This document shows positions 10,101 to 34,299 of a DNA stretch of 36,485 bases, in pieces. Every line of letters starts with the position of its first letter. Positions within the stretch are counted from its first letter, which is position 1. The notes under the pieces are model-generated. The model was given only the letters and a program-made list of their open reading frames with translations, did not search any database and was not told where the DNA came from. A program made the position numbers and the translations under genes. The DNA is from Chromera velia (taxonomy: Eukaryota > Sar > Chromeraceae). The stretch spans positions 1 to 36,485 of the forward strand of contig JAHBMJ010001057.1 of assembly GCA_018398765.1 (NCBI GenBank). Reading direction: 5' to 3'.

Positions 10101-11646
10101 TTTTCTGCAAGGCAGCTTTGGGTCCTCGATTCTTTTCTGGAATCAAAATTGGAGAACAAGAAAAAGGAGTGCGACAAGACAAGTGAGGAGTGGGAGTCTG
10201 TCCAAGAGACTTGCGACCTTCTACAGCTTCTCGGCGTGTCCGCAGAGACGGCAAAACGAGCGTCAGAGTCCTTCCCAGTCGAGAGCACGGAAGGCGGGAA
10301 GGACGTCGATGGTCGGCTGACACGCCTTGGACTGTTTCTTGCCTTCTGCAGGTTAGTAGAGATATGCATGAACAAGACATCTTCCCTGCCCTATCCCGGT
10401 CACTCTCACTCTGCCTCCCGCGCTCTCTACGCGTGTGTGTGTGTGTGTGTCTGTGTGCGTGTTGCACCACGAGCCAATCTGTTTCAAAAGAATCAAGTGG
10501 GTTTTCTGAAGAGAAAACGACTATCAATAGTTGAGATTCAAAATGAAACTTCAAGTCTCTCGGTCCTGTCTCTGACTGCGGTGGCAGGCGGCAACAGCCC
10601 GTGCTTTTTCTTACATTTCAACCGCACTGTGTAAGAGAGCCTGAGTCCCTCTTTATGTTCGTCCAAAATATCTCTCGCTCTTGCTCCGGACCCTTTTCTA
10701 CGTTTCTCTCATGCACATTGCAGAGTTGGTGGAACCTGTCCCCCCAGATCCCGTGTTTCTCTTCCGCCTCTCGTAACTCTTGTCCAGAAAGACGTCGTGC
10801 AGATGGTCAGTCTGTTGAGCACTGGCTTTTGTCTGTTGTTTGTTCGACTCCTCAAGCGTTTCAATTGGCAAAATGCTGGGGGGGCAGATGTTGTTTGCAC
10901 ATTTGGTCAACCGAACGCTGGAAAGGAGAAAACGGAAAGCCTGATTTTTTTTTGCAGAGGGCTTGGTGCTTCGACCCGTCTTCCTTTGATTTCTAGCCCC
11001 AGATAAGAAGTCGGTGCCCTCTGAACAGAGAGAGATGTATGTCAGTCAGTGCTTTTGCATTTGCTCTCCACTCCTCCAAGCTCCAATTTGTGCACCGGTG
11101 TTGTCTTGAATCAATTGCAGGGAAAGCCATGCGTGTTTGAGGTCGACAATGGGAGTCAGATGATCCGACTGGTCCTCTCCCTGTTCGCCAACTTCAAGAC
11201 CACCCCTGCTGACTCGAACCTCCTGTTCTGCTCTGCGGACACCTCAGCTGCAGACATCGAGGCGTTCCTCGCGCGTTGTTTCCTCAGCAGGGCCGCAGGT
11301 GGGTTGATGGGTGGGTGAGGGCTGCAGAAAGGATCTGAGCATGCATGAGGCTTTTGATGCTGAAATTCGATTGGATGCCTTTTCGCGCGATTCCCTGGGG
11401 TGTGCGACCAGAAGGGCAGAGCTAAAGGGATGAAGCTTGAAAGATCTTAGTTGTCCACAGAAGGGGTCCGGACAAAAAGAAAAGAAGCGTACTGGAAGAA
11501 GGGACGTGAGGTGTTGCCTCTGATCCTTTGGACCTGTCGCGGGAGTTTTTTGACACTCTGGCCGTTTGTGCGTGTGTGTGTGCGCGTGTCTATGCGTATG
11601 CGTGTCTTGTGTTTTTGTTTGTGTGTGTGTGTGTGTGCGTGCGCGC

Positions 11647-11677
<31 letters not shown>

Positions 11678-14600
11678 TATGTGTTTGTGTGCAGGATTGT
11701 CGGAGGCCGACCACTTGTTTTGTGTGGTGCGTGTGGAGGCGCTCCCTTTCGCCCTTCAACAACTCCTGGCTGAGGGGGTCCACAGGTGGAGGGAGGAAGA
11801 GGGGGACAAGTTCTTTCTTGCGTTCGTCGTTGTCAGAGAAACAAGAGAGGTCAGCTGAGAAATCGAGATGGAATTTCTGATCGACTTTCTCTGCATTTCA
11901 AAAGGGAAATTAAGCAACATGGTTTGTTTGAACCCGCTGTGCATCGCACATTTCTGTGTCCAAAACAAACACCCAGCACGGCAAACCAATCATAATATGT
12001 CCTGATTTGTTCTTCATGACCATTGACAGTATTTCTTTGCTTCATTTCTGAATCTATCTGCGTGCGTGCAGTCGGTTTTGTTGGAGTCCTTCGCAGGGAG
12101 CGGAGAGGTGGTTCGCTCCCAGGGTCTGCCTCGAGGTGATGCAGAGAAAGTCTTGAAGGCGATGGCACAGGAATGCGTCGTCGTCAGAAGCCACAGACCT
12201 GGGTGTGGCAAGACAGAAAGGGTGCGTTGCTTGCTTGCAAGGGGATGTGAAGCGGATGGGAGGACTGGGCAGTCTTGGGGTTCACAAAGATTCATGCATG
12301 CATGCAGGCATTCTTCAATCTGCCCTTTTTCAGGATTTCATCAAAAGTTCACTCTCAGAAGGGAAAGTCTTCAGTGGTGCTAAGTGGTGATCTTTGTATT
12401 TGCATTTTGTAGACCCGTCTTTTCTTGCATGTGTGTGCTTGCTTGCGCAGATTTTGAGAGAGTGTCGCAGTCGCGGGCTTCTGGCTTTGACGTTTCCCGG
12501 AACAGAGAGGTTTCATCGGAGGGAGGTGATTCGGTCTCTCCGGGGGCGTCTCTCGGATCGGACAAAGAGACGAGAGGAGACGGCAGCCCGCCTAGGAGGA
12601 GAAGAGAATCTTCCTGACTGGGCTCTCCATTTCGACCTGGCACCTGTGAGAAGACCGGAGGAGCTCAGTGACTTTCTCTTCCAGTTGCTGGCTCTAAAGG
12701 TGACTTCTGCAGGGGGGGCGGTTCTTCTGAATCCCTTCGCCGCCTGTTTTCTGGAAATCCCCAACGCGCACGCTCGAGACCTGATCCGGGAGGTCCCCAT
12801 CCTCTCCCTGTTGCCCGTCCGAGAGTGTCTGTTCAGGATTGAAGACTTCGTTGTCTCCCGGAACCCTGCATCCCCTGAGCAGGTGGTTGCCAAGTATCTC
12901 GACGCTCTGAACGTGCAGCCCCTTCACGTGCAAAGTGCCGGTGTGGAGCAGGACCAGTCCATAGAGAGACGGGATGTGCAACTGATCGGTTTGGGCTCCT
13001 CCTCCTCAGAAGGTACTGCTTCTTCAAGTCCTCTGAGTGACATGAGAGTGCGGTCTCTCCTGAACCGGTTCGTTCTTCAGAAGGGAGAGCTTCAGAAGGT
13101 CATGTCCTTCTCCCTCCTCCGAGCATGCCTCCGTTGTTTGGCTGAGCAGTTTGCCTCCATGAGCGCAAGCTCCTTCTTCTCAACAGAGACCCTCCGCGTT
13201 CTGAGAGTGGACCCGTCTGTAAGGAGAATGCTGGTGACATCCATTCTCGACACCTCTCTCAGCAGCCTCACAGACAATGTAGTGGACATGCGAAAAGAGA
13301 GCAGGAAGGAAGCAGAAGACACGGGAAAGGTGGAAGAAATTCCAAAGGGTGAGTGCCTTGCACAGCACACTCTGACCCGCATGGCAAAGTGGGAGGATCG
13401 GAACCAGTTGATGTGTCTCTTCCATCGATCCGACAGATCCACTCTCAGTCTGCTCTACAGAGACGCTTCCCTGGTGCTCCCGGAATTGCGGAACCTGCTC
13501 TCCTCCCAGGAACTCTCAGCTGCTCAGTGCCAGCATGCCTCTGCGGCGTCAGGGCAACGGCCTTTTGCCTTCTCTGTGATGGGACCCCGCCCTGTTGCTC
13601 CCCGCGCACCGTTTGTCGACTACAAATCTCTGTCTTCTGACCATTTGAAGGCGCGTCTCTCTCGCATTGTTTGCACCTCTCTGCATTCTCTGTCGTCTGT
13701 TGATGCCGGGATTCTCCGACAAGGAGCAGCGGAATTCTGTGGGTATGTGATGACAGTCGACAACTTCCTGAAGATGGTCCTGATTGCCCTCCGCCTCAGC
13801 AACCGCATTCCGGTCTGTGTGATGGGGGAGACGGGGTGTGGGAAGACGAGCGTTGTCAAGTATCTGGCCGCAGCGAGCGGCGTCCACTTCTTCTGTCTGA
13901 ACGTCCACGCAGGAACGACAGAGGATCGGATCGACACGTTCATGCAAGAGGTCATCCACAAGGCAGAGCTGCAAGAAGAGGAAAATGATGACGAAGGCCT
14001 TGGGGAAGAGTATCACCAGAGATGGTTGGAATTTTATGACCAGGTGATGCGATACGTGTCTCAGGGAGTTGGTAAGGGCAGTGAGTTCTATGAGAGATGG
14101 AACGATTACCGTCGGCAAATTGCTCGTTTCATCGAATCCTGGTCGATCCCTGGCTCACGGTATGGTCAGCAGTGGACGGACTACCATGAGGAAGTGAAGG
14201 CATTCATCAGGGACATGGATGGGAAGGAGCGCGGCAGTGAGTGTCATCAGAGATGGACCGCATACCACAGAGAAGTTGTCCGTGCGATCAAGGAAGGCAG
14301 CACGCACCTTCCGACGCGGCTACCTCCGAAGCCGAAGCGGACGAAGAAGAAAAAGAAAGAGAAGAAGACACAATACCAAAGCGGAAAACAAACCGTGTGG
14401 GCGTTTTTCGATGAGATCAACACGTGCGACCATCTGTGGCTCTTGTGTGAGATTCTCACTCGGCACTCTTTTCGTGGAACACCTCTTCCACCGAATCTGG
14501 CGGTGCTTAGTGCGTGCAATCCCTACAAGTTCCGAGAAACTGGCAGATGCACAGAGCGTGTGGGGCTGGCGTTGGACACCCGTCAGGGTTTGACGGTGAG

Positions 14601-17600
14601 AGAGGGGAACGCTGAGCGAGGGCAGGGAGAGAACCTTGCGTCGGCTTCGAAGGCAGCAGCCGCAGCGGTGCTGCACCGTCCCCGTGTGTTGAAGTACAAG
14701 GTCCACCCTTTGCCTGAGAGTCTCTTGGACTTTGTTTGGGATTTCGGATCGCTGGATGGACGCCAGCAGAGGCAGTACATTCACAGCATGGCTGAACAGA
14801 CTCTGGAGCGTGCAGGCAGCATCTACTCAGGCCGTTGGGCTCATGTGTTTGCCGAAGTGCTTTGCGAGGCCCAGAGGCAGAGTGAGTATCTTCTGCCGGA
14901 ATCCTCCGTGAGTCTGCGAGACGTGAAAAGGTGTTGCGATTTGTTCATCTTCTTCAGGAATGGAGAACTGAGGGCGACAGCGACTGAGGTCTCTTACTTC
15001 ACACAGCCCAATAAATTTGACGTCGCGCGCTCAGCCCTCGAAGTCCCCTTCCATAACCTGCGGGCGTTCTTCCTGTCCCTTTCGGTCTGCTACATCTGTC
15101 GAGTGCCTGAGGAAGAGGGTTGGAGGAAAATTTCAGCTGCAGTCTGTCAGAAGATCTCGAAGGCTGTGCTCAAAGCCTGGGAACAGTCCGCAGGTTCTCG
15201 TCAGTACTGCGCAGAGCGTGAGGCTCTTGGTCGTTTAATGCAGGTGGGAAAGGCGTTTGCCAAGATGAGGAACATACGGAACCTCACGGATCGGGACTCG
15301 GACAGGCTGACGGAGTTGGGATTTCTCAGCATTGTGCAGGCAAAGAAGACTGCACTTCTGGTCAGCCGGGTAGAGGGGAAAGCACAGAAGTAGAGAGACG
15401 TGAGAAGTGCATGAATAAGCAGTAAAGAAAGAAAAAGAAAGAAAGAAAGAAAGAAAGAAAGAAAACATTCGGCCCTGAAGGAGCCTGTAGATTGGTTGAT
15501 ACGGTTGATCGGCAAACATTCCTTGTGGTTGACCTTGGCCCCTCATGGATTTGGCGTAGCCGAGTGGATTGCGTGAATGCAGCAAGCAAGCAAGCAAGGG
15601 ATGGACTCTGTGTGTGTCCCTCTGTATGTTCATGCGTGCGTGGCTGCATGCATGCAGGATCAAATGGATCTTCCTCCCGGGATTGCGAAGAACCGCTCCC
15701 TCCAGGAGAACGTCTTTGTTGCCCTCACCTGCGTCCTCAACCGGATCCCCCTGATGATGGTGGGGAGGCCTGGAGAGTCCAAGACGCTCTCTGTGCAGCT
15801 GCTGCACGCGAACATGAGGGGGCAGGACTCGAAGAGCGAATTTTTCCGGGAACTTCCGGAGGTCCGTCGATCGGGGGGGNGGGGGGGGGGGGGGTTGCCT
15901 GTGGGCATAGGAATCTGGTAGTCAGACTGATCGACAGTGTCAGTGTGTTTTTGCGTCTTTGTGTGTGCTCAAACGAGACAACAGTCTGTCTGTCTGTGCA
16001 TGGAGTCAACGAGTCAAGGGCGTCTGCAGCCGTCGCTGCTTCGGGTGTTCACCTGGCCCTTTGGGGCGCCTTGTTCTCAACGTACTGTCTTTTTCTCAGC
16101 TTGTATCCATCACGCCTTTTGGCCTTTTTGCCTGAGGGTACACGTGGATACACTCTTTCCTCCATCCATATTAAAGCTGTCGGACACGTCTACATGAACT
16201 TTGCCGATTCCCCACCCTTCTTTCCTGCAGCTGCGTACGACATTCTTCCAAGGCTCCGAATCCTCGACATCAGAGGGCATCGAGAAGGTCGGTAGGTTGT
16301 TCATCCAATGAATCAGATTCAGTCTTTCTAATGTTGATGGGTTGATTTACTTCATTGCTGACTGACTGATGGATATGACTGGCTGACTGATTGACAAAGC
16401 CAGCTGACAAGAAAATCTCTTTGATTCCTTCACTCATTCAATTTCCTTCATTCATTTTAATTTAGTTTGCAGACTCACTTATTCGCTCTCCTCCAGACTG
16501 GGCCCCACAACTATCCCTCACTTCTACCTCCATACCCTACCAAGGCTGAGCTATCTCTCTGTTATCCCTGTGCTACCCCCCAGTGCTACCACAGTGCTAA
16601 GCCCCAGTGCTACCCCTGTGCTATCTTTGTGCTAATTCAGTGCTACCCCTGTGCTACCTCTGTGCTACCTCTGTGCTACCCCAGTGCTACCCCTGTGCTA
16701 CCTCTGTGCTACCCCAGTGCTACCCCTGTGCTACCTCTGTGCTACCCCAGTGCTACCCCTGTGCTACCTTTGTGCTAATTCAGTGCTACCCCTGTGCTAC
16801 CCCTGTGCTAGTGAACAAGACACACATTCCAGGAATGCTCAATGAAATCACGTCACACTTCTGCAGGAAGAATCATGCATTCCTCCGTACAGGGGTAGAA
16901 CTCAATTAGCCTTAAAGGTAGCACAGGGGTAGCACTGAATTAGTTCTGCTCCAGTTTGTGGATTGTTGTTGCACCTCATCCTCTGTTTTTTCTCAGGTTT
17001 TCCAGCGTGCCCTGGTTTCGCAGAAGAAGGAGAAGGGGGCCCGTTTTTGCGTTCTTCTGGATGAAATTGGACTGGCAGAACAAAGCGTCAGTCTGTATGC
17101 AATGAATTGCGTGGTCAAACAGGAAGAAAGCATACTGCGAAGGAAGAAAGTCGCCATCCACAGTGGAGGGAGCACTTCCCTGTGAAGACCACCCGCTCAC
17201 TACCTCTTCCAAGCCGCTCTCCCTGCTAGTCCCTCTCAGGCTCTCCTGATTTGTTTTTCGATTCGTGCCTCCTGAAGGCTGTCCTTTTAAAGGAACATGA
17301 AGTGCAAGGCGTTTTCCTCTCCCCTGCTCTCCCTCAATTTGATTGAAATTCGCCTCCCCCCGTATACTCTGTGCTGCAGCCCCACAACCCCTTGAAGGTT
17401 CTCCACTCCCTCCTGGAACCAGATTACCCGAAGGACAGACCTGAGGTGGCAGTGATCGGTCAGTCACTGCAGAGATCGAGGGGCACATTCATGATTTTTC
17501 GTTTTGGATGCATTTGACGTTCAGAAATGATCCATTCTGCTTCATGCGCGTTGGTTCACACATGCGCTTCTTTTGAGGCTTCCAAAGCACCAAATTTGAT

Positions 17601-20600
17601 CAACATCCATCCATTTGTTCTGCCTTCCTTCGCTCGGTGCTCTGATCGATCTCTATCACCATGCACGTGCAGGGATTTCCAACTACGAGCTTGACCCCGC
17701 CAAAATGAACCGTGCCATCCATCTGATGCGCCCAGGTTAGCGTTTCTTGGGTTTCAGTTTTTTGTCTCGCTTTTTCCTTCTTCGTCAAACCTGGCTGAAT
17801 GGCACCTTTTTTACGCCTTGCGAGAGCGACAGAGCTCTTCTATCTCTTGTGGTGTGGTGCCCCTCCTGTCTTTTTCCTCCCTCCCTTGTGTAGCCACCTA
17901 TTTCCTTGCATGAAGATCCTCTCGAACATCAACACCAGTGTGTCCCATGAAGACTGTGATGAGATGGTTTGTTGCTCCTCCTGCAGCCCCTATGGCTGGC
18001 GTCTTGAAGGACACCGCCCGGACGATCGCCAAGTCCTGCAGCGACGCCGTGATGGAGGAGGAAGCGAAAAGAAATGGGCGTTCCTCGACTTCCTCCCCCT
18101 TCTCTGAGGCTAAACACCTGGTGCATAGACTCCTCAGGGCCCTCTGTGACGCCTACGAAAAGTATATCCGCAAACAGCCCCTGAGGGACTTTCACGGTCT
18201 CAGGGACTTCTACTCTCTCGTCAAGGCCTTTGCGAGGGCAGCCGTTGAAGCAGAGAAAGCGGAGGCGAAAACGTCATACGTGGTAGGTCAAGTCATTTTG
18301 AATAAAGGGACAGCACTGGCAAGCATGTGTCAAAATTGTCGTCGCTGCTTGCGTTTCAGTGCCCTACCTGGCCTCAAATATATGCAGACTTTCTGATCCC
18401 CTCCTGCGACCGAAGTTGCACAATGACGTTCCTTCTTCTTCTTCTTCTTCTTCTTCTTGATCTTCTTCTTCTTGATCTTCTTCTTCTTGATCTTCTTCTT
18501 CTTCTTCTTCTTCTTCTTCTGCTTCTGCTTCTTCTTCTTCTTCTTCTTCTTCTTCTGATCATTTGAATTGATGATGCAGAGACTCATGGCGATGGCTGTT
18601 CAACGGAACTTCGCGGGCGTTCCCTTCAAGCCCCCAAAGCTCCCCCTGATGCCTCCACTGCCAGAGGCGGATGCCCAGGCAGAATCTCAGGAGCACTCGC
18701 ACCAACAACATCTGCATTCTCAGAACGGGTGCCAAGTACAGCCAGGCAGAGATCGACCCGCATGCTCTCTCGACCCTGTCGGTTTGCGCGGCGCTCCTCA
18801 GCAGGCCTCCCTTACCCCTGCAGAAAGATTCCAGAGGGAGCCTGAGGGAAGGCTGCGAGATCTATCTGGAGAGACCCGAAGACGATTCAGAGAGCCTGAA
18901 GGGGGGAGTGCAACCATGATGGCGACTCTGATCTCGAGAATGAAGGGGGAACACTGGAGAGAAGAGGACTACGCAGAAACGCCTATCGCAGAGCTCATCG
19001 CTGCCAATTTTGCCGATCGATTCGCTCGGTGGGTTGGGACAGAGATCATGCAGACAGGCGGAATTATTCTTGTCATGCAGGAAATCACAATTCTCCTCTC
19101 TCGTTTCACAGTTGGAACCGTCGAATGTTTGACGAGTTTCTTTCCTTTTCTTTCCGGCAAATAAACAAATCTTTGGATAAGGTTACCAGATTTCCTCCAA
19201 AGTGCCGAGACGCTTCTCTTCTCTTTCAAAAGTCCCCATGCCTCTCTTCTCTTTGACGTTCTCTCTATGGACAGGTAGTCTGCTTTTGGTGTCGTTGCTA
19301 GACACTCATTCATTCTGGTTGAATTCCCTGTTTGTGCAGGAACCTGCTTCTCGTGCTGCGAGGGTCCGACGAGGGTGCCATCGAGGTCATTCGGGTTGCC
19401 GCGAAGAAAACGGGGGGGAGGCGGGTGGAGGTCCTGATGGGAAGTCCATTTCCTGGAGACACGAAAGACAAGGTCGGTCAGGGGTGGGGCTGCTGCTTCT
19501 GGGAAGTGGTTGGTTGTTCGACCTGTCAGAGGGGCCTTTTGATGGATTGGAGACCGAAAGAGCCGGCTGCAGTTCTGAAGCGTTTTTCCTGTCTGTGAGC
19601 TCGTGGAGTTTGAGGAGAAACTGTCTTTGCACTCCTCTAACTTATTTGAGTGCAGGGGTACGAACGTTATCAGTACGTGACGCTGAACAAGATCATTCTC
19701 CACATGGAGCAGGGGGGGGTCCTCGTCCTGAAAAACCTGGTCGGTCGGTCAGCTAGTCGGGCAGATCAAGAATTAAGTCAATCTGTCCCGTGTGGGATCT
19801 GCAATGCATATCCCCGAGGAACATACAAAATGCAAAGTGAGCATCAGAAAATGTCTTTGAAGATTCTTGAACCTCCTGCTGGGTGAAGTTCATCTCTTCC
19901 TGATGTTCCTGCCTGAAGTGGGCTTCGTCCATTTCTTTCGGGACATAAAATAGTGGTTGCTTGCTTGCTTGTTTGTTTCTCTGGTTTTGACTTTGTGTGC
20001 GTTTTTGCTTCATCGGTTCTTTGTGTGTCTGTGCATGTCTATTTCGCTCTGTCTCTGTGCAGGAAAACATTTACGGCGCCCTCTACGACATGCTGAACCA
20101 GAACTACCAGGTCTGTCGCAGTCGACGGTTGTGGGGGGAGGGCTGGTGGGTCTTGGGCTGTCGGACTTCCTGTCAACGTTGCCTCAGGTAAGCAGAGGGC
20201 GGAAAGCAGCTTCCGGGGAAGATGAAAGAGCGGGTCTCAGATGTCGTGTAGACAGACAGATCGAGAGTGAAACAACAAACTTGATTGAGTCTTTTGCGGT
20301 AGTGCCAGTCTCCTCGTCGTGTGTTTCGGGGCCGAGTACGTTGGTGTTCCAAACGACGGAGCTGCAAGCAAAGATCCGTCCCCTCTGTGATGGATGTGCA
20401 GGTCTCGTGCGGAAAGCGTCACTGCAGGATTGCCCTGGGGCCTTTCAATAACCCGATGTGCCATGTCAGTCTAGCTCAAAACGCATCTCGCTTTTTCTCT
20501 CTGTGGTTTCTGCCCCTTACTTGGCTTTGGTTTCTGGAGGAGAATCCTCGAATTTCCTGTGTGTGTGTGTGTGTCTGTCTGTCTGGTAGAACTACTGATA

Positions 20601-21369
20601 CGGCTGGCTTCTTCTGGCGTTTGCCATTCTTATCAGCTGTGGTGGCCACAATGTCTCTCGATGCTTTTGTTTTCTCGTTCTAAGTGGCCACGTGCGCTCT
20701 TTGTCCCTTTCCTCCCCCTGCAGGTCCACGAAGACTTCCGTTGCGTCGTTCTACTGAGTGAGGACGCCCTCTGGAAGGCCGACCCTCCTTTCCTGAACAG
20801 GTCGGTCCTTTGCTTTTGGGCATCATTTCTGTGTTTCTTTTTTTCTTTCTTACAGACCCTCATCGCCATGTGTGGAAGCTGGAGAGTCGTTAAGTCACAG
20901 GCCGGCCTGGCTGCACGCAGATTTCTCTTTTTCCTTTCCAGAACAGGTCGGATGGTCTTGCTGTGTTGCACCGGATGACGGTACTGAGTGACAACGTTTG
21001 TATGCTCTTTGTCTCCGGTCTGTGCAGGTTCGAGAAGCAGGTGCTGGAGGTGGGAAGAGCAGGAGGCGCTCGTGATGCGCGCTCCCACTGTGCCCGGATC
21101 GATGCGGTTGTTCATGAACTGTCTTCGGTCTGTGGCGATACAGGTCCTCTTCAGGGTCAGTGGGAACTTCTCCGAATTAAAGAAATGGCTGCGCTGAAAT
21201 AACAAGATCGGTGTTGTTTCAGCTGAAGACCCGTGGATACGTTTGCAGACGCAAGGGAATGCAAAAGCTTCCTTTTCTGTGGGGACATAAGCGAGGCTCG
21301 CACAAGATAGACCAACACTCTGCTTCTCGGAGGTTTTGCTGAACTACAAATAACTGCCAGACTCACGTG

Positions 21370-21402
<33 letters not shown>

Positions 21403-22794
21403 TGGTTTTTTGTGCAGGCCCTTCTTCCCTGTCTGCCCGCTTCCATCCCCGCCATCTGATCCCCGGATTCTCCAATGAGACCACCGCCCTGATAGAGGAC
21501 ATCATCAAATCCCGACTGGAGGGAAGAATTCCGGACCCTGTGGAACTTCAGGCGATTGAGCAGACAGCGGAGGACGAAGTGTTCAGACTTGCAACCCCTG
21601 AGGGAATGCTGAGGATTCGGGGTGCACTGGGTGTGAAGGGCGGAGGAGGGGTCGGAGAGGCAGTGGTGTCTCGTGTGAGGGAGATGCCCCGTCGTGACCT
21701 CTCAGATTACCTCTCTGCTCTGTTCAGAGACGATGAGAGTGTTTGGGGGTTTGAGGAAAGACTTGCCCTTGCGTGGGCCCGTGCTCAAGGAAAACAGAAT
21801 GCAGAGAAGGGAGACGCACGGAGACCGTCTCCTGCCATCATCACCAAGAGTGCACTAATTGCCGTCTCAGGCAACTTCTTGGGTCAGTCAGTCAGTTGGT
21901 CGGGTGACAAGGATTTGTTTATTACTTGTATCTGGGTTGTGGGTGACAAATGGGGATTCTCTTTCTGCTGAGCTGACGCGCTGCGCTATTCTTCTTTTGT
22001 GTTCACCTTGAGCTTTGCACATGGTACTGCCATTGAAGAGAGCAGACCTCTTTTTGGCCCACTTAGTCTTTCCTTGCTTCTTCCTGCCTCACACACATCA
22101 ATGCACAAGATCGTTCTTGCCTCTGTCTGCAGATCTTGAGGAGATCTCAGCGCAAGCGTCCCCTTCTCCTTCCTTGGTTCGAGTCTGCCACCTCGCTGCC
22201 TTCTCGACCGAGATGGATCTGGAGAGAGAGCTCCGCGTGTTTCTGGCAGACAGCGAGAAAGAAAGAGACGGCAAAGGAGAACAAGAAAGCGAGAAAGACA
22301 GGAACGATGCCACATCGTCAGAGGATGAGGGTCTGTCTGCAGTCACGGAGAGCTACCACCTCCTTCTTCTGGTGTGCAGCCCCAGGTCCGAACTTCTCAC
22401 TCACTGCAAGAACCACGTCGATACGGCTGTCAACGACTACATGCAGGTCCAGTCTCACAAGACGAACGAAACAGATCAACAGAGACCGACAGCGCGAAAG
22501 CACGTGGTTGTCCTCTTGCTGGGTCCTCGCAGCTCCCTCACCTCCTCTGACTACATTCACCAATTCCCTCTCGGAGGGGGCTGGGGACAGATGCACCTCG
22601 AGAGCGTGACTCCCCAGGTTCCCCCCCTGGAGAGCCTTCTGGTCCCTCGTCTCGTCGATGTCCTCCATCATCTGTCCACGAGGGAAACGGGAACGCCTCC
22701 TCCTCCTCCTCCTCTGCCATTCAAGGAAGCGATCAGAGAGATCATCCTGCCCTGCATGTCGGTCGGCCTCCAGCTCTCTTTCTCCTTCCTTTCC

Positions 22795-22862
<68 letters not shown>

Positions 22863-23139
22863 GCTGGGCGGTGTGTGTTAATCAGCAGAAGGGCAGGTGA
22901 CGCACGCAATCGAAACGCTCATTCTTCAACAAGTCGTGCCGTTTTCTGATTGACAAAGGGCCGAAGGAGTCTGACTGGGGTTGTTTCAGCGTCCTCATTT
23001 TCTTCACAACCTGAAACATTCGCTTTTCGCTTTTCTCCCTATTGAAGAGTACAGGTGGTGCATTGTTGACGCATCCTTTGAAACCATAGACGACAATTTC
23101 CTCGATCCTGCCTTGAACATTCTCATGTGTCCCGTGTGC

Positions 23140-23197
<58 letters not shown>

Positions 23198-24153
23198 GTG
23201 GTACATGAGATACCCCCAGAGCCTCTCGGCGGTTCGGTATGTGATGGAGACGGCGGAACACATTCGGAGCAGCACATTTCTCTGCAGTCAGTCTTGCGGG
23301 AAGCGAAAAGGAAAACAATATCTGATGGTTTGCCTCTCTCCGTATGAGACCAGAAAGGCACCAACACCCGCGTTTCGCTTTTTCTTTCTCTCTGCACTGA
23401 GAATTAAGGCTCCGTTGGAATTCTGTCTCATGAGAGTCGTGGCCGTGCGCGTGCTCGGTTGGTCTGCTTTGCTGCTGTCGCATTTGTTTCGACTCTCTCT
23501 CCTCCTCCAACTGATGTGCTTGCAGATGAGATTCTGTGGATGGCTTGCAAGGAGGACCCTCAGCTGAGGGGACCTATGAGGGATGAGGGTATCGTTTCGG
23601 CTGCCCCCTCTGTGGGGGGGGGGGGCCCTCCCTGGTGGTGGGCTGTGGTTGCAGGGGAGGGTAGGAGTGGGCAGCATCGACTGGGAGACGGGGAGACTGT
23701 GCACGCCTCTCTGGTGGCCTTCGTGAGAGAGAAGCTCCGAGTGCCCCTTGCAAAGGCCCTCTTCCTGTTGGAGAAGAACGGGGCTCTGGGATCTGTGGCG
23801 GCTCTCGTTGACGCAACGTCTGCCGCTACTTCGGAAGGAGAGGACTCGCAGGAGGCAGAGGGCCTGGCGCGTCTCCAGTCAATTTGGAGGCGCCACGCTC
23901 AGCTATACAACGACATTTCCACGTCAGTCGTTTTAGGAATATGAAGTGGAGGCAGTCACAAAAATACTTTTTGATGGTCACTCTTTGATGATTGCTCGCA
24001 AAAGGGCTGAAAGGAAATTCAACCAAGCTTTTCGACGCAGAGAAAGTCATCACAATAATCTCTGAAAAAACACATTCTCTCTCTCCCTTTGGTGCGCGCT
24101 CTCCCCCCCGCCCCCCCCTCTCTCTCTGCCTCTGTCTCGCTGCGTGCGTGTGC

Positions 24154-24197
<44 letters not shown>

Positions 24198-27100
24198 TGT
24201 GTCCATCTGGGGTGCTCCCCTCGCGGCTGCGCGACTTCTTGCCTTTAGGACGGGAACCTTCTGCGGGCAGACTACACGCGCCAAAAAAATGTATGGATGC
24301 ACATTCCCAGAAAGGAATACATGTGTCATGCATGTATTACTGTGTCCACAACTCTTGCAGAGTGCCGACTCCCGACCGGCAAGAGTTCTTTCAGGTCCCC
24401 GTCAGTATCGGACACGTGCAGCTTCCCTTCAGCAAAATGGCGGCAGAGCGAGTCCTTCAGGAGACGGAAAGCTGTCTTCGGAAATTGACGCACGGGGGAA
24501 ACCACGATCTCGTGTCTGTTTTTGAAGGGGCGCGGACGGAAATTCTCTCACAGCTCCGGGATGGCCGTTTCCCAATGGCACTTGAGGATCTCGACTTGTC
24601 AGTCAGTCCGTCCGTTCGGAGGTGATCAAATGACGACGTCTCTTTTTCTCCTCCTCTTTCTCTCCCTCTCTCTCTTTCCCGGTTTCTGCGCCTCTTTTTG
24701 TGTACCTTTGGAAGCGGTACCCTGTTGTTTGTTGGCTTCGTGTCTGCCCTTCCACCTAGCTCTCGTCCCGGTGTCCTGACTGCAGCTTCTCCACGGCATT
24801 CACAAGCGACCTCACCCGCGTGAAGTTCAGTGACCTCTCAGGCGACCCGACACAGAAAGAGAAGGTCATCGGTGCTTGCCTGGGCAGACTGAGGCCCCAC
24901 GCGTTCTCGAAAGGGGGGGGTCGGAAAGCTGCATGGGGACTGAAGGTAGAGTGTGCAACAGCAAAGGACACAGGGGGGCCCATGAAGATTCCCATCTGGA
25001 TCGACAGGGCCATTCTTCTCGTGTACTTCTCCAACTTTCTCCGCCCTCTCCTCACTGCGACCGCACTCTGTCCCCGGAGCCACAAAATCGAGGTTTCCAT
25101 TCAGAGGAGACTGACCAATCCTCTTCTCCGGAGACGTCCGTCTCTGGACGAAGAGAAAGCTTCCATCCAGAAAGAAGTCTTCGTCTCCTGCTGTGAAGCT
25201 CTGATGCCCTGTGTGAATGCCTTTGCCCTCCCTCTGCCGGAAGGAATCTTCGGAGCGACGCAAGTGTCGCGTGGCAATGGAGGAGTGAAACCGATGGCTG
25301 TCAGGAGAGAGGGCGGCCTGCAGCGGTGGGTGAATGCCATCGTCTCCCTCTTCCAGTGCCTCCATGCGCCTCTCAAGCTCTTCATGCAGGAGGCCGCAGA
25401 GACGCAGAGCTTCGATGAGACCCCAGTGAGCCTCTCTGTCCTCCAGGGGGCCGTTTCTTTTTTCATTAGAGACGCTGCGGGTCTCCAGCAAGAGGTGGCA
25501 TCACAGTCAGAGACTGCTGGCAACTCCTCCTTGAAGATGTGTGACAGAGGCATCAAGTCACCTGTGGAAGTACTGGAGGGTCATTTGGTAGAGACAGTCA
25601 TTCCGACGGCTTGGCGACTTGCGGATTTGGACGGTGGAGAGGGGGAGGAAGAGGAGCAAGCGGAGAAGAGAGACGGTCGAGAGACCGCACCCCAAGGTCT
25701 GAAGTTGAAAGACTGGCTGGAGTGTCTTCTGGGGGCACAGTTCTTGTCGGTACCGCGGGAGTGGTCGGACCTGCTCTTCCGAAGTTCTATCCTGTCGGCA
25801 ATTCATTTCGGCACCCTTTCCGCCCTCCCTCCGAAACTGATCGATCTCCGCATCGGCTCAGACCCACCATCAGTCCCCCTGTTTGCGTCTCTGTTCTCCC
25901 ACGCACATCCAGTTGACATTCGGGACCTGATCGTGAACGTCCTCGACCGGTTGCCTTCTGTTCTCGTGGACGCAGAGGGAAGCCGTCAGCCCTCTCAAGC
26001 GTCCGGTGAGTCCAAGGGGTATATCCGTGGGGCTGCGTTGATGGCTTGCCTCCGGATGGACGCAGACAGCGGGCACAGGTTTGAGCTAGCTGGTGAGAGC
26101 GCGACAAGCGGGCAAAGGCTGTTGGAGGCCCTCTGTCGGTCTATCGAGCTTGTGGGAGAAGAGGAAGGTGGGGGAGAGGGATTCTCTGGTGGGTTCTCTG
26201 AAATTGGCAGCGTTGTTGGGAGTTTGACGGTGGTGGGATGTCAGGCACAAAACAGACGCAGCTCCGGATTCGTGCGCACTGCAGGCAAGGTCGCTGCGAT
26301 GGCGACGGTGGTGGACGCCCTTGACTTTGCAGCACTAGGAGGCAGGAGTCTCGAGAGACCGCAAGAGAAGAGAAACTCCATCTGCCCTTTCTTCAATTGG
26401 GATCTCCTCACACAGCAGCCAGGGGAATGTGATCCCTATCTCAAATCGCTATTCACGCAGGCAGTCGATTTTGCCCTCTGGAAGTTCTGCCGGATGATGG
26501 AGAGGGTTCAAGACCTGGAGGGTGAAGAGGGGAATGTGGAGGATTTGGGTGAAGATAGACGCCCCTCTCGGGTGTTTTGCGACTTCTCTGGTCTGGCTTC
26601 TGTGGCAATCCTCAGGTGGGGTCCTTCCTTTCTCATCGCGAATTTTGTATATTCCGAAGAGTCCTATCTGCCTTGTGGTTTTCCAATCAGGTGAGAAAAC
26701 AAATTCACGTGTGAGAAAAGCGACAGAAAGAAACACCTAATTGATCTCGTCGAAAGTGGTGATTCCTGATCGAATGCCACTCTTCCCCGCTTGTATCCCA
26801 CGTCTATTTTTCTCTTCGAAACCTCCCCGCGTGTCCCTCTCCTCCTCCATTGCAGATGGTTCGTCGGGTCCCTGGCGGCCGCTGTTGCTGCTCCTCTGGC
26901 TGCTCTCTTCGCTGACGAGGCAGATGCAGATGAGCAATCGCACAAGGAGACACAGAGAACACGCCCGAGCGCAGAAACCAAATTCAAGCAGCTGTCTGAC
27001 TTCCTCAAAGGCCTCGATCTCCAACGCCTCCTTCAGCCGAAGCCTCACCTCTCGGCTGTAGTCCAAACTCTCCGTCTCTTCTTCCTTCGGCAACTGCGAG

Positions 27101-30100
27101 TCTCCTTCAGCAGAGATGCGCTGCGGAGAATTTTCGGGGCCCGCCCAGAAGGCAAATCCCCCATGAAGATTTTGAGGGAAGCCCTGCCGTGGCTCCATGA
27201 CTTCTTCTGGCCCCCTCCGTGCGAGAGACCATCCATCGCGGGGTGTCTAGACTTCTGCCCTGTGCATTGGGTCTGCACGCTTCCTTGCTTCCGTCTCAGC
27301 GATGATGCAGCAGGAAGCGGCAATGGTGAAGCTCCTGCTCGCACGTCCGTGATGGACACCCTCAGCAGGTATTGCGTTGACCTCATGACAGACTCTGCCG
27401 CCCTCCCGGGTCCATGTGTGGCCGCTCTAGAGGCAGCGGGGGGCGTGCGTCAGGGGGAGAGGGAGACTGTGAAGAGCCGCCTGCTTCGGGCTCTGTCGAT
27501 TCCTGAAGTTCTCGGAGGCGTGTTTGTGTTGCGCCTCTGGGAAGAACGATTGACAAGCTCAAGTTCAAATTGCAGCAGTGTCAGAGAAGGATGCCTGAAG
27601 GGCCTGGACGCAATTCGCAGTGCGTGGGGGGCAGTTGGACGGACGGTGACGAGGGAGGGGAGGGGACTGCGGCATCCGATTGCCACAGCGTTTGTGCATT
27701 TTCTTTTAAGGAAGGGGGAGGCTGGCAGTGTACTGAGCACCGCTTTCCGCAACAGCCTGAAGAAGATGAGTGGGGAGAGGGGTGTGAACAGAGCACACGA
27801 ATTGACGGAGAGTCTGGTCCTTCAGGTCGGCTGCGCTCTCTCAATGGCTGAGGCCCTGCCGCATCAATCCAACGCTCTGTTCCCGTTCGTCGCTCTTCTC
27901 AGAACTCTCATGAGAGGAGAGGAGGGCAGGGACACAGAGCGTGACAAATCGAGTGGAAGCAAGCAAGAGGGGTTGAAACTAGAGGCAGGCATCTCTGTGG
28001 TTGCAGCTTCATTTCTCCCCGGAATGCCCGTAGAGGAGGGGACTCACGCGGCTGCAGCTGTCAAAGAGAGTGCCACGAGACACACCTGCAAATGCGGAAT
28101 TGAGTCAGTCAGGGAGTCACTGTGTGTTCTCTGCACCTGTCTGTGTCTGTCTCTCTTCATTCGACTCCTTTTCATTGTGTTGGACCCGAAGCCTGCATGT
28201 CTCCAACAATATTCTGTTGTGATGGTTCCGTGTTGGTCTTTCTTTCTGGACCGTTTCCATGGATTCATTTTGGTTGCAAATCCCCCGATTTTATTAATAT
28301 GACGATCAAAAAGAAAAGTTCTCGAGCGGTTGTGGGCATGAATGGTGTCTCTGCACTGTTTTTAATTAATGCTCATCTTCTGTCGTGTGGTGCGTGCAGA
28401 CTGTTTGTCAGAGATGGCCAGAACCAAAAGGAGACCCACAGAAAGTGTAAGTTTAGTTGCTTTTTCGACTTCTTTGATGGCCATCGATGTCTTGTCTTTC
28501 TCTACCTCCCCGCGTGCGTGAGAGGGACAGAGCATGTGTGTGTGTGTGTGTAAATGAGTGCGGCGCGTGTGGAGTGTAATTTCTGCACTTCCGTGCTTTT
28601 GAAAGGGGCACGCCGTTCTTATTACTTCCTCATCTCTCTGTGTGATATCACAACCATTCTTCTTGCAAAGCTGTCAAGTCTCGCTCGTTTCCCTTCCCTT
28701 TGACAACAGAAATCGCTTTTTCTTCATGAAAATCGACCGTTGCAGGCCCCGAGTGCGCTCGGCCGATTCCTTTGGTTGCTCAGGAGAGAGGAAACGCGCC
28801 ACCTATACCCGGAGGAAAAGCCTCGAGACACCAGATGGGGATGTGTCGAGGATACGTGCCTCTCTCTGGAAGCAGAGGAGGACTCGGGTGGATGGGTCTC
28901 GTGCCCCTGCACATTCGTCCAGAGACCTTCCGAGTCCTTCGCCTCCTCCTTCATGGTTCCCTCACAGCCGCCTTTGTCCTTCTCTTGCCGGGAGGGGGCG
29001 GGGCGTTGCGGAGATTTCAACGCGGCAGGGTTTCAGGAGAGGACAAAGCGTTGGAGGTGTCTGTGTGTGAGCACTTTGCCCGACTGCTGGGGATCTCTCT
29101 GAAAGACCCCGTCCACAGAGGTCAGATTTTGGGACCTCTGATGGGATCTGTCTCTGCGGATCTCTTGGCCCTCTCAGAGATGCAACAGGGGGCCGGGGGG
29201 GAGGGAGAGATGCACCCATCTGCTGAGAAGGTATGGCGCGCCTACCTGCGTGTGATGTGCATTCTTCGTGAGGCAGTGGGAGGTGAGGGCCTGGCAGATG
29301 AGTGTGAGGGGTGGTGTCCTCTAGAGAGAGGACTGTTCGGTTCGAGAAGCATGCGGGTAGAATGGGAACGGTCATTTGAGTGGTGCGTGATGGAGTCTGA
29401 GGGGGTGAGGGGACGTCGGGCTGTCGGGAGGATGGAGGAAGACCTCCAGTGGCGTCTTGTGGTTGGGGGACAGGTCGGTACAGTTCTCTTCGTTTTCCTC
29501 GTAGATCTGGCTTATTTCAACTCTTGTTGTTCAATTATGGTACATGGAAGCATCACTAAAACGTGTTATCTTTTTGAGCGCTGCTGCTCCTCATTTTCTC
29601 CGTTTCTATACGCCAAGCAGGTATCTTTCTGTGACACCACATTGCTGGCTGTGAGTGCAGGCATGGTCGCAGCTGGAGCGGGATGTAGAGGAAGTGGTGG
29701 AGTCACCTCTCTCTCGACCCGATGGTTTGCATCTCTCTGGGGTGTCGGATGAATGCGGGAACCCTCCTGGTGGGAGAATAGACAACCACTGCACTGACAA
29801 TTCAGGCAGTCAAGGCGACGGTGCAGAGACACAGGCAGCGTGTGTGCTGCGGGGGGGGTCTGGTGGGTCCTCTGTGGGGGGTGTTCAGAGAAACGAGGCG
29901 ACTCTCTCAGTGAGCACAGTCGAGAAGTATCTCTCTGTTGCTATCCCTGCCTCCCTCTGGCGCAGTCGCCCTCTCACAAACTCACCCGTTGCTGCACTTG
30001 AAGAAGAGATGGAAGAGCAAGAGGAAGGGGAAGAAGCTGAGGACGATGCTGAGGGCTCAAGGAGCGTCTCTTCTACCGCCTTGCAATTCCTTCGACGTCG

Positions 30101-31047
30101 GTGGAAGAGGGACCCTGAGGAAGTCCGGCTGAGATTCCCGTGGGCCGCTGCAGTGGCTCAGCATGCACAGAACTTCCACCTACGTCAGTACAATTCTGGT
30201 GTTTGCTGAACGCGGCTTTGGACAAGGTAGAGCGGAAGTGTATTAATACATCGCTTACCAACTGAATGCATGGAGTGAGCTGGTTCCCGAACACCCATTT
30301 TCGCATTCGCTTCTACTTGATACGCACCGCCTTCAGCCTGGTCGGATCCACCTTTCATTCTTTTTCCATCGTGCTTTTGTCCACGAGTGTAGCGCTGGTC
30401 TCTCACAGTGTCTCTTAGAGTTTGCATGTGTGCGCCTCTGTGTGTCTTTCTGCTTGCCTGCAGTCGCCCACGTCCCTGCTCTACTCGCCTGGCCACGCGC
30501 TCTCATTGATCGCTTCTCCCAGAAGATCTCCCGAGAAGAGGCAAAGAAAACCTCGGTGGACAGGCTCCTCTCAGGTCAGTCGGACAGTCAATCAGTCAGC
30601 CAGTCAATGGAAAGAGGGAAGCGCGTGGAGGAGACAGATGAACTCCTGTCCAATGCTGTCCATTTCAAAAAACTTATTGTTCTTCTTCATATACCTGCTC
30701 TTTCTTCGTAAAGGCGCTGTCTCGTTGCCGGCTGTTACCGCCAGTCCTCGTCTTGCAGTCATGTTGAGTTGTTGACAAGTTGTGAGTCTCTCCATATGAG
30801 GCGACAAAGGCCCTACTCTCTCTCTCTCTCTCGCTGTGTGTGTGTGTGTGTGTGTGTGTGGCTTTTTCCTTTGTCATCACAACGACACATCTTCATGTGT
30901 GCATGCAGGCATGCCGGAGAAGTTCAGCGACGTGTTCGATCAATTCTCCTCGGCCTGGAACGCTTGTGTGGCAGCTGGCTTGGCAAAGAGGTCCGTGATG
31001 GAGCTGACCTTCTGTTCTCTTGTGCTGCTCTTGTATTGCCTCTCTTC

Positions 31048-31091
<44 letters not shown>

Positions 31092-32335
31092 TTCTCCGGT
31101 TTTCCTTCCAATTCCTTCCTCCTTTCCCCATTTCTTCGTTCCTTTCTGCCTTCCTTCCCATCTCGGATCTTGCTTCCATTTCGCCTTTTGACGTGATCCT
31201 CCTGCATGCAGCAGTCAGAACGGCTCTTCGGGCTGCCCATATGGTCAGTCAAAGTGTGCACGCGCCTGAGTGTAACTTTATGCAGGAATGTAAGGGAGGA
31301 GATGAGCCCTGTGGTAATACCGAAGAGGATGAGCAGGAAGGTGCCCGTCGCGTTCTCGTGTCTGGGGAGACATCGTGAGGGCACGGGGCTTCTCCGTCTG
31401 CTGGAGGATCTGTGCGGCCTCCAGGACAACTTCCTCGACTCCTTTTGTGACAATGTCGCCGCAGCTCGGGCGCAAGAAGCCGAGCAGGAGGAGTCACGAG
31501 GGAAGGTGCTGGGTGTTTCTACAAGTGGGGAAGGGCAGGGATCAGAGAGGGAGGGAGAGGGTTCAGGAAACAGAGAGGGAGAGACCTCTCGGCAGCCTCC
31601 TTTGCCCCCTGGTCTCCTGGAAGGTGCATCTGCTCTCCGTCTCGCAGAGGCCCAGAACAGAGCTGCACTTAGAGTCGCGGTCCCGCAGAGCTCTGCGCGG
31701 GTAGTCGGCTTTATGGAAGATCTGATCAGGGAGTGCCTGGTGGGGGGACTGGGTGCTCTTCCCCCACAGCCGCAACACGCAGGGGGAGGGGGGGGACGCT
31801 GGGCGGGTGAGGGTGTTGCAGTGTTGCGGGGAGGTTTTTCTCTCCATTCGGATGTGTGGATGCTTCCCGGAAGGGAGAGAGAGCTTCACTGGGGGAGCCT
31901 GGAGGGACAGCTGCGGTCTCTGTTCGGGGGAGTGCGGCGTCTGCAGAGGCCCTTCTCTCGATCCCTTTCGGAGGAAGAGGGGGGGACGTTCAGATTCTCC
32001 GGGGATTTCTCTCAATCAAAGTACTTCCTCAAAACGTTCGCGGAGACAATCCCGCAGGTTTGTTCTCTCTCTCTCTCTCTTTCCCTCTCTCTCTCTCTCT
32101 CCTCTCTCTCTCCCTCTCTCTCTCTCTGTGTGTGTGTATGTGCGTGTGTGTTGAAGAGCTGCCCATCGATCAGCACTTGCGAGGCGGGTGGGTCAGAAGG
32201 AAGCGGGTGGGGAATGAGTCAGAATATCGAGAAAGAAGACGGGAGGGTAGTGGGACTAAGTTTCCATCAACTGGCGAAGGCAATGACGTTGCTTGAACCT
32301 TTCCGTGTGGATACTTTCTCCTTAATTCCCTATGT

Positions 32336-32369
<34 letters not shown>

Positions 32370-33460: not shown

Positions 33461-34299
33461 CTGCGTGTGAGAGACGTCAGGCGGCCTCCAGAATCTAGAG
33501 CACTGATATGCAGGGGGTTGGAGCACGCACATACTGATCGGCAGCTTGAGTCCGAACTGAAATGTTTCAGAGCAGCAATCGGCAGGCAGGCAGGCTTTGT
33601 TCGACACAGTGGTGAAGGTTCTTTCTGTCAGTAAGAAATGAGCGGTTTTTCGGGGCGAGACACCCAGTTTTTTGTGTGCGAGTTTTGTGTCGAGTCCGAT
33701 AGGATTTGAGTGGTTTCAGATTTGTCTTTTTGGTAGCATTGACTAAGCTGTTCGGGACGCGTTTCTGTTCCGACACTTTCCTGCCTCTTTGAGGAGATGA
33801 AAGGGCAGGATGTTCATGTGCGGGCGGGAGAGAGCAGCAGCTGTGTGAATTGGCAGATCTTTGTGGCAGAGAGAATGCAGGCAGCGAAGGTCATCATCGA
33901 AGGTCCTTATGGTAGAACAATGAATGGGTGCGCGTGCGAGTGCATGCGTACCAGTAAGAATATTTAATGGAATGGGGAGGGTCACTCCGTTGAACAGCAA
34001 GTCGGTTCCCAAAGCATCTTCTCGTTTGAGTGCGCGTCAGAAGGCAAGGATGGGGCATTGGACAAGCATGCGAATTGCCACAACGTGGCAAATCGGTTCA
34101 AGACTCCGAGAATCAGGAGTGTATTTTACAGGTTGTTCTTTTGAGTGCAAGCAACAAAAAAAGCGTGAAGTGTCTGCCAAGTAATGTTGAGTAAGAAAAG
34201 TGCGTTGGCCTGTAGGTCCGAGTCGGCGAGTCCGTTCTTCAATGTGTTTTGAACTTGCTTGTAACATTCAGATGCGGCCCATTCTTTCAAGTTCTTGTA
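33461..34299. other. 3' flank of the RNF213-like gene
   Basis: No ORF here resembles a protein I know, and no splice-linked coding blocks are visible. It probably holds the 3' UTR and intergenic sequence. No clear poly(A) signal is present here; the first AATAAA is at 34520-34525, inside the AT-rich block. Confidence 0.4.

Follow-up and report, generated by a model that had tools for sequence, protein, structure and literature searches.

A tandem array of four predicted helices between the Walker motifs of AAA3 in an RNF213-like protein of Chromera velia

The closest described systems include AAA+ rings that carry additional elements near helix 2 of individual AAA units. In the available text of PMC4047620, AAA+ H2 inserts sit in the middle of helix 2, and AAA3 of dynein carries a hairpin between H2 and S3, the surface of which is poorly conserved. 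For Rea1, the accessible sections of PMC6286127 describe helical bundles on helix 2 of AAA2, AAA4 and AAA6; the AAA2 bundle (AAA2L-H2alpha) fills the centre of the ring and is reported as auto-inhibitory and Rix1-binding, and its deletion (residues 692–813, 122 residues) raises ATPase activity 10–15 fold. Deletion of the AAA6 bundle, in the same sections, leaves the ATPase without drastic change, the legend giving a decrease.

RNF213 is described in the available part of PMC7311170 as an auto-inhibited dynein-like ring whose loops IR5 and IR3, the latter behind Walker B, are regulatory, and the trigger that frees this ring is there called unknown. According to the excerpts of PMC12075652 available to us, mammalian RNF213 becomes active as a ligase once ATP is bound at its AAA3 and AAA4.

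We analyzed a window of 36,485 nucleotides from Chromera velia, i.e., the whole of contig JAHBMJ010001057.1 as supplied, in which an RNF213-like AAA3 domain holds an insert built from repeats. The features on which the analysis is based are as follows.

12391–15390, + strand: open frame of 1000 codons holding the RNF213-like AAA3 (stop-free translation).
13825–13848, + strand: Walker A of AAA3, GETGCGKT, with the catalytic Lys codon at 13843–13845 (sequence, RNF213 alignment).
13915–13974, + strand: helix 2 of AAA3, TTEDRIDTFMQEVIHKAELQ, the last RNF213-matched element before the insert (RNF213 alignment to 13962; low-confidence model helix).
13975–14001, + strand: acidic leader of the insert (residue counts).
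14002–14076 (core 14002–14067), + strand: repeat unit 1, Trp at 14023 (self-comparison; helix in two models).
14077–14151 (core 14077–14142), + strand: repeat unit 2, Trp at 14098 (self-comparison; helix in two models).
14152–14232 (core 14152–14217), + strand: repeat unit 3, Trp at 14173 (self-comparison; helix in two models).
14233–14301 (core 14233–14298), + strand: repeat unit 4, Trp at 14254 (self-comparison; helix in two models).
14329–14367, + strand: basic lysine-rich run of 13 residues after unit 4, KPKRTKKKKKEKK (sequence).
14398–14415, + strand: Walker B of AAA3, WAFFDE, with the catalytic Glu codon at 14413–14415 (sequence, RNF213 alignment).
14518–14748, + strand: RNF213-matching stretch from sensor 1 (CNPY) to VWDFG, containing the IR3 signature loop (alignment; IR3 numbering from the available part of PMC7311170).
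15661–15867, + strand: AAA4 exon of the same core, Walker A GRPGESKT (E = 1.5e-8 to RNF213).

The coding part of the AAA3 frame probably starts behind a 3' splice site at about 12451, which was called by eye from a TG/pyrimidine tract with a pyrimidine fraction of only 0.55. Frame residues 450–523 and 669–915 (numbered from 12394) align with AAA3 of RNF213 in the search of PDB sequences, where nine RNF213 sequences came first among the 14 hits and five of midasin followed (best E = 6.9e-16); the top chains were 9jwg_A and 9jw1_A at E = 1.4e-27, and a second alignment to RNF213 over AAA3 gave 2e-28. With only the Walker A half as query, midasin topped the ranking (E = 4.3e-28) because several midasin AAA domains each match this segment. 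Per single stretch, the best midasin domain reached 29 bits versus 43 bits for RNF213, and midasin was rejected as the nearer family, its top rank being a sum over several AAA domains. In Pfam, the AAA3 frame matched AAA domains alone, up to E = 0.01.

The Walker A and B motifs, the sensor 1 region, the IR3 stretch, VWDFG and SLRDV all align with RNF213, and the exon with the AAA4 Walker A follows. For the Walker B of AAA4 we have a candidate, DEIGLAEQS near 17,000, picked by eye and lacking an RNF213 match in the PDB comparison. Overall, the locus contains a catalytic AAA3 and an AAA4 with Walker motifs, and RNF213 is the AAA+ protein nearest to its AAA3. Between the AAA4 exons lies a tandem array (16566–16810) in which the 11-base form of an 11-base/33-base unit (CCCTGTGCTAC family) occurs about 22 times; the array is probably intronic. 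TG, TC and CT dinucleotide tracts are numerous in the window (e.g., 11567–11691, 24144–24202 and 32064–32127).

Long + strand open frames continue over 15393–33500 (e.g., 24760–26691 and 26770–28299), and the scans made in this region identified no RING or RZ finger of the RNF213 type. Of the downstream + strand frames with at least 70 aa (n = 73), 15 were compared with Pfam, which returned no RING and only DUF4131 and HTH_AraC below cut-off, and a RING pattern gave no stop-free match on the + strand. The two + strand matches to a loose RZ-like pattern lie at 21770, outside any frame of at least 70 aa, and at 24141, in a TG tract. An RZ profile gave one sub-cut-off match in the genome (C1374, E = 0.0135), and two of 14 control genomes were matched likewise. 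As no RING was found in the scanned frames, we call the protein RNF213-like and do not assign it an E3 function.

A sequence-only reading of the window had located four repeats and a lysine-rich run at 14002–14394, between intact Walker motifs of the catalytic AAA3 of an RNF213-like core and in a connection that is short in RNF213. The site agrees with the RNF213 alignment, with a Walker motif on either side; both motifs are complete and the lysine-rich run is present behind the repeats. The repeats do lie within the extent given, and this extent has to be corrected with respect to the stretch without an RNF213 counterpart, which is ~13963–14397 (145 residues here versus 12 in 9jwg_A) and includes, besides the array, the acidic leader ahead of it and the basic tail that follows unit 4.

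The Lys of Walker A (13843) and the Glu of Walker B (14413) are separated by 190 residues, whereas the corresponding residues of human (K2426, E2488) and mouse RNF213 (K2387, E2449) are 62 residues apart in the available excerpts of PMC12075652, i.e., 128 fewer, in line with the short connection claimed for RNF213. The last RNF213-aligned residues before the gap fall in helix 2 and the next ones at the start of Walker B; therefore, the insert belongs to the helix 2–strand 3 (H2-beta3) loop. In the established AAA+ topology, helix 2 lies between Walker A and Walker B, and the alignments agree with this. It should be kept in mind that the border of the insert is uncertain by several residues, since five of the nine RNF213 second stretches in phmmer begin inside it (query residue 627). 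An extension of mouse 6tax into the insert was set aside; it looks forced and re-uses chain residues 1884–1904, which are already aligned to helix 2. In solved structures and in the human and mouse residue numbers, the repeat is absent from AAA3 of animal RNF213, where its presence would have spoken against the earlier reading.

An exon-by-exon search for paralogues across the assembly (177.8 Mb, 4040 contigs), the counts of which are lower bounds, yielded at least three other RNF213-like AAA3 domains, on C2302 (L006), C330 (L009) and C3877 (L008), indicating that the family has expanded in this genome. In the PDB search, C2302 and C3877 matched RNF213 with E = 2.5e-12 and E = 8.7e-16, respectively; C330 was recognized by its motifs and by matches to the window. 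Counted from the strand-2 motif, the Glu of Walker B lies 170 residues away here versus 37 (C2302), 38 (C330) and 34 (C3877), and the Lys-to-Glu distance in C2302 is 57. Thus, the connection is short in all three other domains, as in human and mouse RNF213, and the long connection between helix 2 and strand 3 is found in only one of the four RNF213-like AAA3 domains detected. A further weak match was seen on C3474 (L024, E = 0.05).

The array itself was recovered as first described, with four units of 25–27 residues (Trp codons spaced by 25, 25 and 27 codons). Within a 22-residue core, every unit has Gly in column 1 and Trp in column 8, column 11 is aromatic throughout (F/Y/Y/Y), and columns 4, 8, 11, 15, 18 and 19 are hydrophobic in all four, with Cys, Ala and Tyr counted as hydrophobic. 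A fifth Trp (14140), between units 2 and 3, is outside the pattern. Self-similarity at an offset of 25 residues scores 95, a value never reached by shuffles of the 160-residue region (n = 1000, mean 26.5, maximum 48). Between units, 27–40 of 60 bases and 5–10 of 20 residues are identical. Tandem Repeats Finder (minimum score 40) has no entry in 11691–15424, so that the units are well diverged at the DNA level. In agreement with the earlier reading, copies this diverged indicate that the expansion is not a recent slippage, and they permit no further dating. The array is flanked by segments of opposite charge: 13963–14001 (13 residues) has seven acidic and no basic residues, and the 33-residue tail after unit 4 has 12 basic and one acidic.

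The hydrophobic moment exceeds that of most shuffles in each of the four units (p from 0.008 to 0.036 each, combined p = 1.7e-4), and every unit is thereby predicted to be an amphipathic helix. AlphaFold, a check proposed with the earlier reading, placed four helices, one per unit, in both runs (AAA3 and insert alone). The single-sequence model of the insert alone (pLDDT 73, pTM 0.64) shows the four helices packed together and not as an extended arm; the earlier reading had suggested an arm projecting from the ring. The model of the AAA3 domain, likewise from one sequence, is poor (pLDDT 44) and yields no placement of the bundle on the ring. Judging from these models, the insert is probably a small bundle of four helices.

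As far as the available text on dynein goes, the H2-beta3 insert of its AAA3 occupies the same loop of the equivalent AAA unit; it is a beta-hairpin of 13–14 residues, whereas the Chromera insert is a predicted helical array. Rea1 AAA2L-H2alpha, in the sections at hand, is a helical bundle of similar size, likewise borne by a single AAA unit in a ring of six AAA units on one chain, and starts 33 residues past the Walker A Lys (residue 659, alignment count), compared with 40 for the Chromera insert. It differs in that it belongs to AAA2 and extends a beta-sheet within helix 2, whereas the Chromera insert follows helix 2 in the alignment. The two show no sequence similarity in the PDB sequence searches, and the accessible sections on Rea1 do not describe its bundle as a tandem repeat.

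IR3 of RNF213 is also a regulatory insertion (AAA3L; PMC7311170, available part), but it lies beyond Walker B (mouse 2487–2538, with the Glu at 2449), and the Chromera insert lies before it. The Chromera stretch containing the IR3 loop is distinct from the repeat insert; since this counterpart is present, the repeat insert is an addition to the RNF213 plan. Among the listed titles and abstract openings of papers on RNF213, none describes such an insert, which is no claim of its absence from print.

We favor a reading in which the insert is a tethered, paralogue-specific four-helix module with a regulatory or docking role in an RNF213-like AAA3, and we give this reading about an even chance. 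An RNF213-like six-AAA ATPase would have gained about 130 residues between helix 2 and strand 3 of AAA3, resulting in the order Walker A, helix 1, strand 2, helix 2, insert, strand 3 with Walker B. The central part of the insert would consist of a single amphipathic helix in four diverged tandem copies, linked by Gly-containing turns. These copies would pack around an aromatic core as a small four-helix bundle that has the acidic leader and the basic tail as its tethers and leaves the nucleotide motifs intact. Such a bundle may bind a partner or another face of the same ring, and its binding would bias the opening and closing that follow ATP binding at AAA3, in a manner similar to the inserts at or beside helix 2 of Rea1 and dynein. 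A regulatory or docking role is likely by analogy, being drawn solely from the dynein, Rea1 and RNF213 precedents.

In a bolder and only tentative form, the bundle would have arisen in place by repeated duplication of a single amphipathic Trp/Tyr helix and would be a releasable element for both auto-inhibition and partner docking, an independent counterpart of Rea1 AAA2L-H2alpha on an RNF213-type ATP sensor.

The first alternative is a near-neutral expansion, in which a helix was duplicated within a permissive surface loop and the enlarged loop has been kept simply because it folds harmlessly. The available accounts of Rea1, where loss of the AAA6 bundle has no drastic effect, and of dynein, where the equivalent AAA3 insert is poorly conserved at its surface, make a structural or near-neutral insert possible. 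Three of the four RNF213-like AAA3 domains identified in the genome lack the insert, and the copies agree at only 5–10 of 20 residues, which points the same way. Yet all four units share the six hydrophobic positions and the similarity of the units is confined to the coding frame; therefore, the fold at least appears to be selected, and we lean against near-neutrality while taking it as a serious possibility.

The bundle and basic run could also serve as an address for nuclear import or for binding to nucleic acid, membrane or another acidic surface, with no part in regulating the ATPase. The 13 residues of KPKRTKKKKKEKK, which we take to resemble a nuclear localization signal, and a tail with 12 basic residues and one acidic residue would suit such targeting or recruitment. 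The run is, however, short and located inside a folded ATPase, and lysine-rich linkers are common, which makes this explanation unlikely.

Capture of a mobile domain from another protein family would fit the abrupt insertion at a single loop and the repeat architecture of its own. Against this, no confirmed relative was found in Pfam, NCBIfam, PDB sequences, prokaryotic and viral contigs or the same genome, and we regard capture as very improbable. The profile search of the repeat unit suggested earlier matched no known family in the first three of these collections: Pfam returned solely GldM_1st at 8e-4, under its cut-off, NCBIfam had no match up to 0.1, and PDB sequences gave none below E = 0.2. 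Haemagglutinin chains (E of at least 0.22) and agarase and others (E of at least 0.48) were taken as noise in the PDB search. Among bacterial and archaeal contigs, none of the 22 pattern matches to the insert was confirmed; viral contigs had no pattern match, and the part of AAA3 after the insert had no relative in either set. Rfam was empty for the window.

In the Chromera genome, no credible copy of the repeats was found outside the array; L003 and L018 (stops in frame; E = 0.016 and 0.54) and L004 and L017 (E = 0.13 and 0.43) were treated as noise. The native helix 2 of AAA3 found no support as the source of the unit, ranking 7th among 859 out-of-array exon windows with a score of −0.5 versus 66–72 for the units. 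The top out-of-array match in the exon is a segment of the AAA3 small domain at 14815–14880 (GSIYSGRWAHVFAEVL / GSIYSGRWAHVFAEVLCEAQRQ), with a score of 18.25 (next 2.75); this score was reached by 173 of 20000 shuffles, and the segment was picked after the fact. At the DNA level its rank among 846 windows is only 14th for mean and 67th for best identity, and its RNF213 counterpart in the PDB alignment has no RW pair. The match could be chance or a hint to the source of the unit.

Several measures bear on whether the insert is coding. When the units are compared in register, the proposed frame scores 2.295 BLOSUM units per residue and none of the remaining five frames exceeds 0.47, which favors a selected protein and disfavors an intron. 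Third-position GC in the insert (0.62) falls within the range of the flanking exon pieces (0.44–0.70), and first-position GC (0.53) is slightly below theirs (0.59–0.64). Changes between units show a weak third-position excess (55, 55 and 63 of 120), which is expected under saturation and is no proof on its own. Usable GT/AG dinucleotides exist in the insert (e.g., GTAAGG at 14072), and the pyrimidine fraction upstream of the AG at 14331 is 0.60 versus 0.55 at the sole reference acceptor examined, so that acceptor strength does not exclude an intron. Nevertheless, a stop-free intron that is spliced out and contains the repeat by accident is hardly credible given the frame-specific likeness of the units, not expected of an intron, the observed score of 95 against a shuffle maximum of 48, and a base composition that resembles the flanking exon at third positions, if slightly lower at first positions.

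Taken together, what is known is that six-AAA rings carry inserts at or beside helix 2, and what is new here is a paralogue-specific insert of unusual tandem-repeat origin. A predicted helical module added in AAA3 of a natural RNF213-like protein provides a testable case of ring regulation, and it also points to a repeated gain of such modules in the H2/beta3 region of six-AAA rings.
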